The notes below the pieces were generated by a model. That model did not search any database. It was not told the DNA's origin and worked only from the letters and a program-made list of their open reading frames with translations. A stretch of DNA of 64,000 nt from Burkholderiaceae bacterium (GTDB lineage: Bacteria; Pseudomonadota; Gammaproteobacteria; Burkholderiales; Burkholderiaceae_E): assembly GCA_023954045.1 (NCBI GenBank), contig JAMLIR010000014.1:1-64000 (forward strand). Direction: 5' to 3'. Shown here piece by piece: positions 38,742 through 41,734 of the stretch. Each line of letters begins with the position of its first letter. Position 1 is the stretch's first letter. The translations under genes and the position numbers were made by a program.

Positions 38742-39007
38742 TGCAAAGGCGCGGGCCGTGGGGCGAGCTGCCTGCGGCGGACGCGCCTGGTGCTTGCCCC
38801 CGCTTCGCGGGGGTGCCCTGCGATGCTCGGATCGCCGGCCCGCGCCGCGAAACTCGCTACGCGCGCTGCGCGCGCTCCGCTCAGACAATCGCGGCGAGTC
38901 AGATGAACGATGCGCGCTTCGCGCGCAGGCCGGCGCTCCTGCGCTTCTCGGCTGCGCACAAGGCGCGCCCGCCGCAGGCAGCTCGCCCCACGGCCCGCGC
39001 CTTTGCA
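38742..39007. repeat. Inverted repeat element A (47-base arms) with conserved core
   Basis: Arms 38742-38788 and 38961-39007 are reverse complements with one mismatch in 47 bases. The 172-base centre holds, at 38843-38896 and in minus orientation, a nested motif: an 8-base-pair outer stem (CGCCGCGA/TCGCGGCG) enclosing TGTCTGA, an inner GC-rich hairpin and GAGTT. The motif is centred within about 5 bases of the dyad. Elements B and C share the motif but not the arm sequence. It lies between the DppD- and DppF-like genes. No transposase or target duplication was seen. Confidence 0.9.
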
Positions 39008-39076
39008 GGAAGCGTCGTGGCGTTCGCGAGAATCGTGTCCGTCTACGGTTCGAACGCCACCGACGCTTCGAGAGCG

Positions 39077-39360
39077 GCAGGCGGCGGCTGGGCGGGGCGC
39101 GGCGCAACGGGGCCCAGCGCTTCGGGGCGATGTCGGCGGCGCCGAGCAGCGGAGCCTCGGGGTCGGCGCGCGAAGCGCGCTTCGTACTTCTGACTCGCGG
39201 CGACTGTTTGAGCGGAGCTCGCGAAGCGAGCGCAGCGAGTTTCGCCGCGCGACCCCGAGGCGAGCAGCGGAGGGAAGTCGGTGCGAAGCACCGACCGCCG
39301 GCGTCATCGCCCCGAAGCGCTGGGCCCCGTTGCGCCGCGCCCCGCCCAGCCGCCGCCTGC
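39077..39360. repeat. Inverted repeat element B (56-base perfect arms) with conserved core
   Basis: Arms 39077-39132 and 39305-39360 are perfect reverse complements over 56 bases. Inside, GCCTCGGGGTCG (39154) and CGACCCCGAGGC (39250) form a second pair, and the core motif occupies 39197-39248: outer stem GCGGCGA/TCGCCGC, left loop TGTTTGA, inner stem GCTCGC/GCGAGC with a GAA turn, right loop GAGTT. The core is centred within 4 bases of the dyad. It sits just upstream of element A and directly after the end of the DppD-like gene. Confidence 0.92.
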
Positions 39361-39402
39361 CGCGACGCGATCAGCCTGGAACGAATCGCGGGCTGCGTCA
39401 CG

Positions 39403-40398
39403 TCAGAACGCCTCGGCCGCCGGCGCCGCTGCGCGATCGTGCAGCCAGCACGCCGCGAGCGACGTGCCCGCTTCGCGCAACTCGGGGCGACGTTCTCGGC
39501 ACACCGTCATCGCCCGACGGCAGCGCGGGTGGAACGCGCAGCCGCGCGGGATCGCGTCCAGCCGCGGCATCGCCCCGTCGATCTGCGCGAGCCGCTCGCG
39601 CTCGCCCGAGATCGACGGAATCGATCCCATCAGTCCGGCCGTGTACGGATGCTGCGGACGGTGGATCACGTCGGCGACCGGCCCGATCTCGGCGATGCGG
39701 CCCGCGTACATCACCGCCACCCGGTCGGCGACCTCGGCGATCACGCCCATGTCGTGCGTGACCAGCATGACCGCGGTGCCGTGCTCGCGGCACAGCCGGT
39801 CGAGCAGCGCGATGATCTGCGCCTGGATCGACACGTCGAGCGCGGTGGTCGGCTCGTCGGCGACGACGAGCTTCGGGTTCGCGGCCAGTGCCAGCGCGAT
39901 GACCACCCGCTGGCGCATGCCGCCCGAGAACTGGTGAGGATAGTGGTCGATGCGCGCTTCGGCCGCCGGGATGCCGGTCGCCTGCAGCAACTCGATCGCG
40001 CGCGCCCGCGCCTGTGCGGCACCGAGCCCGAGGTGCAGCGTGATCGTCTCGACCAGCTGGCGGCCGATCGTGTAGAGCGGATTGAGCGACGTGAGCGGGT
40101 CCTGGAAGATCGCGCCGATCTCGCGGCCGCGCACCTTCCGCATCGCCTCGGCGGGCAGGTCGTCGATGCGCCGGCCCGACAGCAGGATCTCGCCGCCGGC
40201 GATGCGCCCCGGCGGCTCGAGCAGGCCGATGATCGCCGCGCCGGTCAGCGACTTGCCGGCACCCGATTCGCCGACGACGCCCAGCACCTCGCCCGGCGCG
40301 ATCGAGAACGACACGTCGTCGATCGCGACCAGCGTGCCGCGCCGGGTCGGGAATTCGACGCGCAGGTTGCGCACTTCGAGCAGCGGCGCAGCGTTCAT
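39403..40398 (-). CDS. Peptide-type ABC transporter ATPase (DppD/OppD-like)
   Basis: The 331-residue ATPase has Walker A GVVGESGAGKSLTGAAI, Q-loop AIFQDPLTSLNPLYTIG, signature FSGGMRQRVVIALAL, Walker B LVVADEPTTALDVSIQAQIIALL, the switch MLVTHDMGVIAE and a C-terminal Cys-containing oligopeptide domain ([23 protein letters not shown]). It powers the DppB/DppC-like permease together with the DppF-like ATPase. The start ATG overlaps the DppC-like stop by 4 bases. Confidence 0.92.
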   Translation of the reverse strand: MNAAPLLEVRNLRVEFPTRRGTLVAIDDVSFSIAPGEVLGVVGESGAGKSLTGAAIIGLLEPPGRIAGGEILLSGRRIDDLPAEAMRKVRGREIGAIFQDPLTSLNPLYTIGRQLVETITLHLGLGAAQARARAIELLQATGIPAAEARIDHYPHQFSGGMRQRVVIALALAANPKLVVADEPTTALDVSIQAQIIALLDRLCREHGTAVMLVTHDMGVIAEVADRVAVMYAGRIAEIGPVADVIHRPQHPYTAGLMGSIPSISGERERLAQIDGAMPRLDAIPRGCAFHPRCRRAMTVCRERRPELREAGTSLAACWLHDRAAAPAAEAF

Positions 40399-41372
40399 CG
40401 CAGCTTCGGATTGAGCGCGTCGCGCAGCCAGTCGCCGAGCAGGTTCACCGACATGCACAGCAGCACCAGCGCGAGCCCGGGGAAGACCACCAGCCACCAC
40501 TCGCCCGAGTAGAGGAAGTTGTTGCCGTTGTTGATCATCGTGCCCAGCGACGGCGAGGTCGGCGGCACCCCGACGCCGAGAAACGACAGCGTCGCCTCGG
40601 TGATGATCGCCTGCGCGACGTTGATCGTCGCGATCACGAGCACCGGACCGAGCACGTTCGGCAGCACGTGCCTGGTCATGATCCGCCACGGGCCCGCGCC
40701 GATCACGCGTGCCGCCTGTACGTACTCGCGGTTCTTCTCGACCAGCGTCGAGCCGCGCACCGTGCGCGCGTACTGCACCCAGTTCGCGAGCCCGATCGAG
40801 CCGACCAGCACCGCGATGGCCAGCCAGTCGTTGTGAACGTCGCGCGGCAATATCGCGCGCGCCGACCCGTCGATCAGCAGCGCGATCAGGATCGCCGGGA
40901 ACGACAGTTGCACGTCGGCCACGCGCATGACGAACGCATCGAGCCGTCCCCCGACGTAGCCCGACAGCAGCCCGAGCCCCACGCCGAGCAGCATCGCCAG
41001 CAGCACGGAAGCCACGCCGACCAGCAGCGAGATCCGCGACCCGTAGAGGATCGTCGACAGCACGTCGCGCCCCTGGTCGTCGGTGCCGAACACGAACGAC
41101 CAGTTGCCCTCGTCCTGCCAGACCGGCGGCAACAGCGAATCGTTCAGCGACAGCGTGGCCAGATCGAACGGCTGGTGCGGGGCCACCCACGGCGCCAGCA
41201 CCGCGCCCACGATCATCACCAGCGCCACCACGGCCGCCCCGATCGCCACCGGGCTCGTGCGAAAGCTGTACCAGAGGTCGCTCGCGAAGAACCGCCGCAG
41301 CGCACCGGGCGGCTGCGCGATCGAAGTCGCGCCGCCGCCGTCTGCCGCGGAGTTGCGGCCATCGACACTCAT
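40395..41372 (-). CDS. Peptide-type ABC transporter permease (DppC/OppC-like)
   Basis: The 325-residue inner-membrane permease has about six helices, the OppC N-terminal domain (APWVAPHQPFDLATLSL, FVFGTDDQGRDVLSTILYGSRISLLVGV) and the coupling motif EYVQAARVIGAGPWRIMTRHVLPNVL. I chose the ATG at 41372 (MSVDGRN); an upstream ATG at 41417 would add residues encoded partly inside the inverted-repeat arm. It is followed by the two ATPase genes. Confidence 0.9.
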   Translation of the reverse strand: MSVDGRNSAADGGGATSIAQPPGALRRFFASDLWYSFRTSPVAIGAAVVALVMIVGAVLAPWVAPHQPFDLATLSLNDSLLPPVWQDEGNWSFVFGTDDQGRDVLSTILYGSRISLLVGVASVLLAMLLGVGLGLLSGYVGGRLDAFVMRVADVQLSFPAILIALLIDGSARAILPRDVHNDWLAIAVLVGSIGLANWVQYARTVRGSTLVEKNREYVQAARVIGAGPWRIMTRHVLPNVLGPVLVIATINVAQAIITEATLSFLGVGVPPTSPSLGTMINNGNNFLYSGEWWLVVFPGLALVLLCMSVNLLGDWLRDALNPKLR

Positions 41373-41403
41373 CGCCCACACCTGGCGGGTGCGAGGGCCT
41401 CGA

Positions 41404-41734
41404 GGCATCGCGGGCATGCGACGCGGGGTGGCGTCAGCGGCGTTGCGACGGCGCGTGAGCGCGGGCCCGGGGGAGACGCGCGCCGGGCCCGCGGCGTAGG
41501 CGCTGGCGCGGGAGCGCAGCCGAGACCGGACGCGCGAAGCGCGAGTCGGCCCCTGTTTGAGGCCCCGAAGGGGCCGAGTTGGGGCCGACGGTCCGGGCTC
41601 GGCGTCCGCGCGACCAAGCGTTTCCGTATGGACAGCGCCTTCGTCGCGGGCCCGGCGCGCGTCTCCCCCGGGCCCGCGCTCACGCGCCGTCGCAACGCCG
41701 CTGACGCCACCCCGCGTCGCATGCCCGCGATGCC
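41404..41734. repeat. Inverted repeat element C (90-base perfect arms) with conserved core
   Basis: Arms 41404-41493 and 41645-41734 are perfect reverse complements over 90 bases, with a 151-base centre. At 41545-41589 lies the cleanest copy of the core: 9-pair outer stem GTCGGCCCC/GGGGCCGAC, left loop TGTTTGA, 6-pair inner stem GGCCCC/GGGGCC with GAA turn, right loop GAGTT. Its midpoint (41567) is within 2 bases of the dyad (41569). The element fills the space between the binding-protein and DppC-like genes, so it would be transcribed as a very stable hairpin within the operon. Confidence 0.95.

Follow-up and report, generated by a model that had tools for sequence, protein, structure and literature searches.

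The 64,000-nucleotide stretch of DNA analysed here, referred to as the window, comes from contig JAMLIR010000014.1 of a Burkholderiaceae bacterium (G000, a draft genome that is 97% complete, termed the source genome below) and contains three long palindromes, all of which lie between genes of a minus-strand operon resembling a peptide transporter, with ATPases, permeases and an SBP_bac_5 protein (Table 1). Each of these elements is termed a rod, that is, a long palindrome with a tip at its centre, the tip being a hairpin enclosed by TGTYTGA on its left and GAGTT on its right. The rods measure 266-331 bp and are the sole three inverted repeats of the window that are <700 bp across and have at least eight 13-mer seeds on one axis. 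An original prediction, made from the letters of the window without database searches, had placed three hairpins of one layout (an outer stem, a fixed loop and an inner hairpin) at the centres of long palindromes; the long palindromes proved real, with arms at 96%, 97% and 98%, and the layout was recovered at all three places with outer and inner stems as described. The description was incomplete for tips A and B, in which the inner hairpin is separated from the TGTYTGA/GAGTT loop by a GC/GC pair together with a 3x3 internal loop (GGA/GTA or GGA/GCA).

Table 1. Positions of the rods, their tips, the inserted unit and the neighbouring genes within the window
Feature	Position	Strand	Remarks
ABC transporter ATPase with oligo_HPY (DppF-like)	37633..38727	minus	flanking gene
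Left copy of 8-bp direct repeat GTCACGTC	38678..38685	unstranded	G015 (a relative) has one copy at its empty site
Inserted unit (rod A, spacer hairpin, rod B)	38686..39396		711 bp; absent at the orthologous G015 junction
Rod A, long imperfect palindrome	38742..39007		arms 38742-38793/38956-39007, 96%
Tip A, TGTCTGA - hairpin - GAGTT	38851..38887	minus	R1 model match 38843-38896, E 9.6e-5
Spacer hairpin S, GAAGCGTCGTGGCGTTCG / CGAACGCCACCGACGCTTC	39009..39069		between rods A and B
Rod B, long imperfect palindrome	39074..39363		arms 39074-39141/39296-39363, 97%
Tip B, TGTTTGA - hairpin - GAGTT	39205..39241	plus	R1 model match 39196-39249, E 1.8e-5
Right copy of GTCACGTC	39397..39404		2-base overlap with the stop codon of the upstream gene
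Open frame, C-terminal part a second ATPase with oligo_HPY (DppD-like)	39403..41379	minus	
Permease with BPD_transp_1 and OppC_N (DppC-like)	40395..41417	minus	flanking gene
Rod 3, long palindrome	41404..41734		between permease and solute-binding-protein genes; arms 41404-41505/41633-41734, 98%
Tip 3, TGTTTGA - GGCCCC GAA GGGGCC - GAGTT	41554..41580	plus	
Solute-binding protein SBP_bac_5	41757..43802	minus	flanking gene

The loop pattern together with an outer stem is matched three times in the window and not once in 100 first-order Markov simulations of it, which argues that the tips are not due to chance. Folding energy alone would have missed the motif, since tips A and B fold no better than their dinucleotide shuffles (z 0.01 and -0.41, compared with -3.84 for the third tip); the tips are judged real because the loop stays fixed while the stems change. 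Chance GC-rich palindromes with look-alike loops might be suspected in a region with a GC content as high as 70%, where two of three tips fold like shuffled sequence, but this explanation is already refuted by the empty simulations and by the frequency of flanking stems reported below, many of them in AT-rich genomes, and its probability is negligible. The preference of the original prediction for selection or recognition over chance is borne out by the same results.

The tip extends far beyond the window. A covariance model of the short tip (R1) yielded 11 matches in the source genome, including tips A and B but, unlike these, not tip 3, and matches in 18 of 299 genomes of the same phylum at E ≤0.001, these counts being lower bounds because the filters were stricter and scoring covered 23 candidates in each genome; most of the 299 genomes had no match. 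A pattern search for TGTTTGA-N(6-36)-GAGTT in 41 genomes returned, among the matches listed, inner stems that differ yet are self-complementary, for example GTGGCTT/AAGCCAC in G027, GCCGGTTC/GAACCGGC in G003 and GCC/GGC in G031, together with many unstructured chance matches, and the reversed control pattern also gave frequent matches in some genomes that do not belong to the genus. The short tip TGTYTGAGCGNAGCGAGTT was found in 87 IMG/VR stretches and in at least 118 GTDB stretches (the GTDB counts being lower bounds, with loci L170-L287 used in scripts), compared with an estimated ~15 chance matches expected in all 257 Gb. It was seen in Proteobacteria, Bacteroidota, Clostridia, Fusobacteriota and others, and its GTDB carriers, among the matches listed, include Variovorax, Ralstonia, Marinobacter, Haemophilus, Flavobacterium and Parabacteroides as well as Clostridium, Lachnospiraceae, Selenomonas, Fusobacterium, Desulfuromonadales and others; single phyla are to be taken as leads, because metagenome bins may be contaminated.

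Because only loop letters entered the TGTYTGAGCGNAGCGAGTT searches, the flanks provide a test of the stem that is free of selection. Of 126 distinct genome instances among the matches, 91 carry at least 7 of 8 Watson-Crick pairs beside the loop, many of the stem-bearing ones coming from AT-rich genomes; the corresponding share is 0.48% of 2520 positions drawn at random from these loci. Of 40 distinct viral instances, 17 have such a stem, compared with 0.37% of 800 control positions. In 21 loci from several phyla, all 8 outer pairs are changed on both sides and 97.6% of cells are paired, with a covariation score of 1.047 (0.215 when shuffled, ≤0.26 when slid); these 21 loci had been selected for having their stem in a single register, and the count of 126 instances is the unpicked test. 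The tip is thus fixed and its stem covaries, which agrees with the compensating stem changes first noted in the three window copies, and neither of the outcomes under which that observation had been expected to dissolve (no other copies, or stems without covariation) was encountered. The original observation is right, and it is larger than first described: hairpins of one family span phyla, with a constant tip and with arms that can change jointly.

Rfam 15 gave no match at the rods of the window, whether at the gathering score or at a permissive E of up to 10, and none at the gathering score at 10 further loci, in line with the earlier statement that no named family with this signature was known to its author. 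The tip letters and their complement retrieved only papers unrelated by title from the open-licence PMC literature, and in the literature so searched, which for the cited papers means passages of them, the element carries no name. Elsewhere in the window, at 57310-57372 (+), Rfam RF02278 (Betaproteobacteria toxic small RNA) is matched with 74.3 bits and E 3.7e-13, which points to a host among the betaproteobacteria. Among the viral loci examined (L083-L162), for example L086, the surroundings of the tip are recurrent, with CTTCAAG[TC]GGTT on the left and AA[AT]TAAAT on the right; this recurrent sequence carries the tip letters in many viral contigs without the outer stem. The sole pointer to a host for the viral loci is a stretch of 49 bases in L086 that matches Acinetobacter phages.

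The unit made up of rods A and B and the hairpin between them is a clean insertion. In the relative G015, the genes that flank it are 94-96% identical to those of the window and are joined directly at a single GTCACGTC, which in the window forms an exact 8-bp direct repeat on the two sides of the unit. In five more members of the genus, the same junction holds spacers of ~100-215 bases in which no tip was seen by eye; those five members also lack rod 3 at its site, and G015 has it. At locus C34, the source genome has an insertion in a place where the stop and start codons of G005, G013, G014 and G008 almost touch. A B rod of G015 (L326) has a 7-bp repeat, GACGGTC, on both sides, and a B rod of G005 is missing from locus C7 of the source genome. 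The junction orthologous to C34 in G003 (L371) has, in the same intergenic place, another palindrome with arms of ~29 bp and no TGTYTGA tip.

The arms differ between species at several loci and yet remain palindromic. Most of the genus rods listed belong to two core types, in each of which arm and tip are separated by a nearly fixed distance (63-64/54 and 67-68/56-58), rod 3 and one G003 rod being of other types; a variable palindromic stretch lies within the arm, and in some rods the called arm reaches further in. In nine orthologous rods, compared between the source genome and G015 or G005 (two cross-match rows were left out, and L014/L306 gave no row), core identity is 0.85-0.99 and palindromy within the rod 0.88-0.98. 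In five of the nine, arm identity is as low as 0.65-0.70, with a core identity of 0.88-0.99 and a palindromy of 0.93-0.98; between different rods of the source genome (12 rods), the arms have a median identity of 0.57 and a highest of 0.74, compared with 0.52 for shuffled arms. At the rod 3 locus of G015, for instance, the core is 95% identical and the arms are different, at C27 a 15-base difference in length from G015 is mirrored in both arms, and at C7 at least one arm change relative to G005 is compensated. A search of 18 genus genomes for a source of two arms gave >60 bits only at their own locus. A passage of PMC8604942 describes template switching between inverted repeats as leading to arm homogenisation and spacer inversion, and a rod inverted between collinear flanks in two species of another lineage, G197 and G172 (L402 9357-9447 and L408 3249-3339), is what such switching does.

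With genes called by frame scoring carried out for this analysis and not taken from annotation, 157 distinct rods were placed: convergent genes flank 50 of them, tandem genes 77 and divergent genes 11, a further 8 fall within a called frame, and 11 have a gene on one side only. The rods are thus mostly intergenic. At least one gene end faces the rod in 127 of 138. Between tandem genes, the tip strand is antisense in 44 rods and sense in 33, and with respect to the nearest gene end it is antisense to that gene in 85 and sense in 42. Rods therefore lie where genes end and seldom have a promoter on both sides, and transcription does not favour the tip strand. A coarser tally made earlier, covering 41 rods in AT-rich loci, placed 13 between convergent genes, 13 antisense and 8 sense between tandem genes, 5 between divergent genes and 2 within a frame. 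Pairs have a polarity: 42 of 44 neighbouring tips <600 bp apart are arranged minus-then-plus, the others being one plus-minus and one plus-plus. Of 26 neighbouring frames listed, 20 were scanned, and 18 of these matched varied Pfam families, with no transposase among the matches.

These observations are best explained, with chances put at about even, by a mobile, non-autonomous palindromic DNA element resembling the repetitive extragenic palindromic (REP) doublets known as REPINs, with the tip read as a DNA hairpin. Rods would be dispersed mobile elements, often occurring as two inverted rods around a short spacer, and a DNA-processing enzyme would recognise the tip in the form of a hairpin, either single-stranded or cruciform. 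The arms would be held complementary mainly by template switching between them during replication, so that their sequence could drift or be exchanged without loss of palindromy. The element would spread by insertion at gene ends because it does least harm there. The DNA-element reading is also supported by the predominance of rods in which transcription from the nearest gene end uses the strand opposite the tip. A GNA turn, as in the short tips, makes very stable DNA mini-hairpins; GNA was fixed in the search pattern, so its frequency is not evidence.

Several observations weigh against this reading. An exact direct repeat was found at just two loci; at C34 the repeat is imperfect, the corresponding G015 site carrying the base hairpin alone, and the source-genome site corresponding to L326, where the rod is missing, seems to keep a remnant of the unit or of rod A and, not being clean, was dropped as an empty site. 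No transposase, terminal inverted repeats or autonomous copy was found for the element. The arms are conserved in four of the nine orthologous rods (identity 0.79-0.96), and at C3 three changes of the source genome relative to G015, all in one arm, have no compensating partner; the arms are therefore not rewritten everywhere. Over whole arms, moreover, G.T pairs exceed A.C pairs on the tip strand, by 58 to 28 in 46 genus rods (p=0.0016) and by 118 to 75 in 66 clustered other rods (p=0.002), a sign of some single-strand pairing constraint with which an RNA role is possible, and the low frequency of both kinds of pair would equally fit an RNA needed from both strands. A purely DNA-level pairing, as considered from the tip-adjacent stem alone, was dropped because of this excess, and DNA is rated only as more likely.

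The arm excess of G.T, the fixed internal loop with its covarying stems and the position of rods downstream of genes would all suit a structured RNA, the stronger of the two main rival explanations, in which the tip strand would be transcribed as a 3'-UTR or a small RNA, the stems would covary because the RNA must fold, and the TGTYTGA/GAGTT loop would be read by a protein such as an RNase. Covariation alone, it must be cautioned, does not prove an RNA. This explanation is rather unlikely, as the tip strand is not the favoured transcript by either the tandem or the nearest-end count, Rfam is silent at the rods, and the insertion polymorphism with its direct repeat also speaks against it. Next to the tip, where stems were admitted only with at least 6 of 9 Watson-Crick pairs, G.T is rare and hardly in excess (23 compared with 19 A.C in 157 distinct stems). 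As a share of standard pairs, G.T makes up 1.6% in genus arms, 3.2% in arms elsewhere and 1.8% in the stem next to the tip, compared with 39 of 309 pairs in 14 tRNAs of the same loci, for which the A.C count is uninformative since the program seems to bracket standard pairs only. Nearly all pairing in the rods is therefore of the Watson-Crick kind. According to a passage of PMC8794818, several pairs of a stem can be fixed at once by template switching without a G-U step. Few G-U pairs would be expected as a result.

Pairing of this purity is also demanded if the palindromes must fold in the RNAs of both strands and end or protect both mRNAs, as in a two-sided transcript-end element, and the frequency of convergent gene pairs (50 of 138) and rarity of divergent ones (11 of 138) would be expected of it. 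T-rich tails (at least 5 T in the 8 bases after the stem) give a divided answer: outside the genus they occur on the plus side of 7 of 82 rods, where 2.0 are expected, but on the minus side of only 2 of 82, and within the genus on 1 of 61 plus sides and 0 of 61 minus sides. A scan of 38600-41900 found no terminator-like site, the rods of the window lie inside an operon, and the asymmetric tip common to several phyla would be left unexplained, which makes a two-sided element quite an unlikely account.

A wider form of the DNA-element reading is put forward tentatively, namely a cross-phylum class of DNA hairpins that would be independent of known transposases, with a near-universal tip read by a widespread bacterial enzyme and long arms repeatedly rewritten as complementary pairs, which would give every copy a palindromic barcode of its own. 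A strongly covarying short motif that is common to distant phyla and has no Rfam match is unusual. Should the tip act as a DNA signal, a widespread protein would have to recognise it, and identifying this protein would give access to a new system of mobile elements or genome maintenance. The arms are natural replicates of the making and upkeep of long palindromes, with the same locus and the same core but different and still palindromic arms, and with them it can be tested directly whether template switching gives rise to compensatory change.

Among known systems, the closest are REP sequences, bacterial interspersed mosaic elements (BIME) and REPINs with their REP-associated Y1 transposase (RAYT), which share with the rods a dispersed, intergenic, multi-copy and palindromic nature, frequent inverted pairs and a hairpin that is probably recognised as DNA. 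The rods differ in that the GTAG/GTGG (or CGTC) foot was not seen on them, by eye and without a scripted search, in arms of tens to >100 bp that differ from rod to rod, and in tip letters common to several phyla, whereas REPs are called species-specific in a passage of PMC6006769. That the rods are ordinary REP or REPIN elements moved by a RAYT is improbable, despite these likenesses and a Y1 gene of G197 that lies between two inverted tips. The linkage to Y1 (TnpA-REP) nucleases suggested in the original prediction finds no support in the source genome: PF01797 has no match in this draft, matches in only 3 of 18 genus genomes (15 have none) and gives no match in 7 of 16 element-bearing genomes, including G005 and G266. 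Of 16 Y1 places, 13 were inspected, and these gave two tips at L388, a match scored on the loop pattern only at L397 and no tip at the other 11. At L388 (1790-3165, G197), the RAYT-like Y1 gene and a second small gene stand between two inverted tips among GTAGGTCGGATTA-type repeats, which look like the Y1 gene's own REPs; the Y1 gene was not counted as an autonomous copy because of these GTAG-type repeats and the other small gene.

Intrastrand-triplex repeats (PIT / TM-ECO; Holder 2015, PMC4666352) have a likeness in a hairpin with one pyrimidine-rich and one purine-rich half that follows the rod at ~15 of 25 loci by eye; this hairpin is the neighbour of the rod and not the rod itself, and the passages of PMC4666352 consulted describe no TGTYTGA/GAGTT tip. 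In several phyla (L192, L226, L235 and L239), a second hairpin with such halves (for example CCTACTTTCTTTT...AAAAGAAAGTAGG), which looks like an AT-rich intrastrand triplex element, lies roughly 100 bp downstream of many rods, and a 64-base piece similar to the CCTACTTTCTTTT-type hairpin occurs at 37 to at least 40 places in each of seven Paraburkholderia records. Near rods of L092, L182 and L194, CCCTCTCCC...GGGAGAGGG-like repeats resemble the known TM-ECO triplex motif.

Miniature inverted-repeat transposable elements (MITEs) are likewise short, non-coding and inserted with a direct repeat, which in the rods is of ~8 bp (8 bp in the window, 7 bp at L326, imperfect at C34). The likeness holds in part only, a target-site duplication being present and terminal repeats not, as the insertion ends at the window locus are unlike each other by eye, and no partner transposon was found. 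The intergenic dyad sequences (IDS) of Haemophilus are described in a passage of PMC4144887 as intergenic dyads thought to help locus mobility; cross-phylum spread does not appear in that passage, and rods with the tip are present in Haemophilus (L239) and Rodentibacter (L226). As a lead only, drawn from descriptions and not from sequences, the IDS may be the same thing as seen in one genus.

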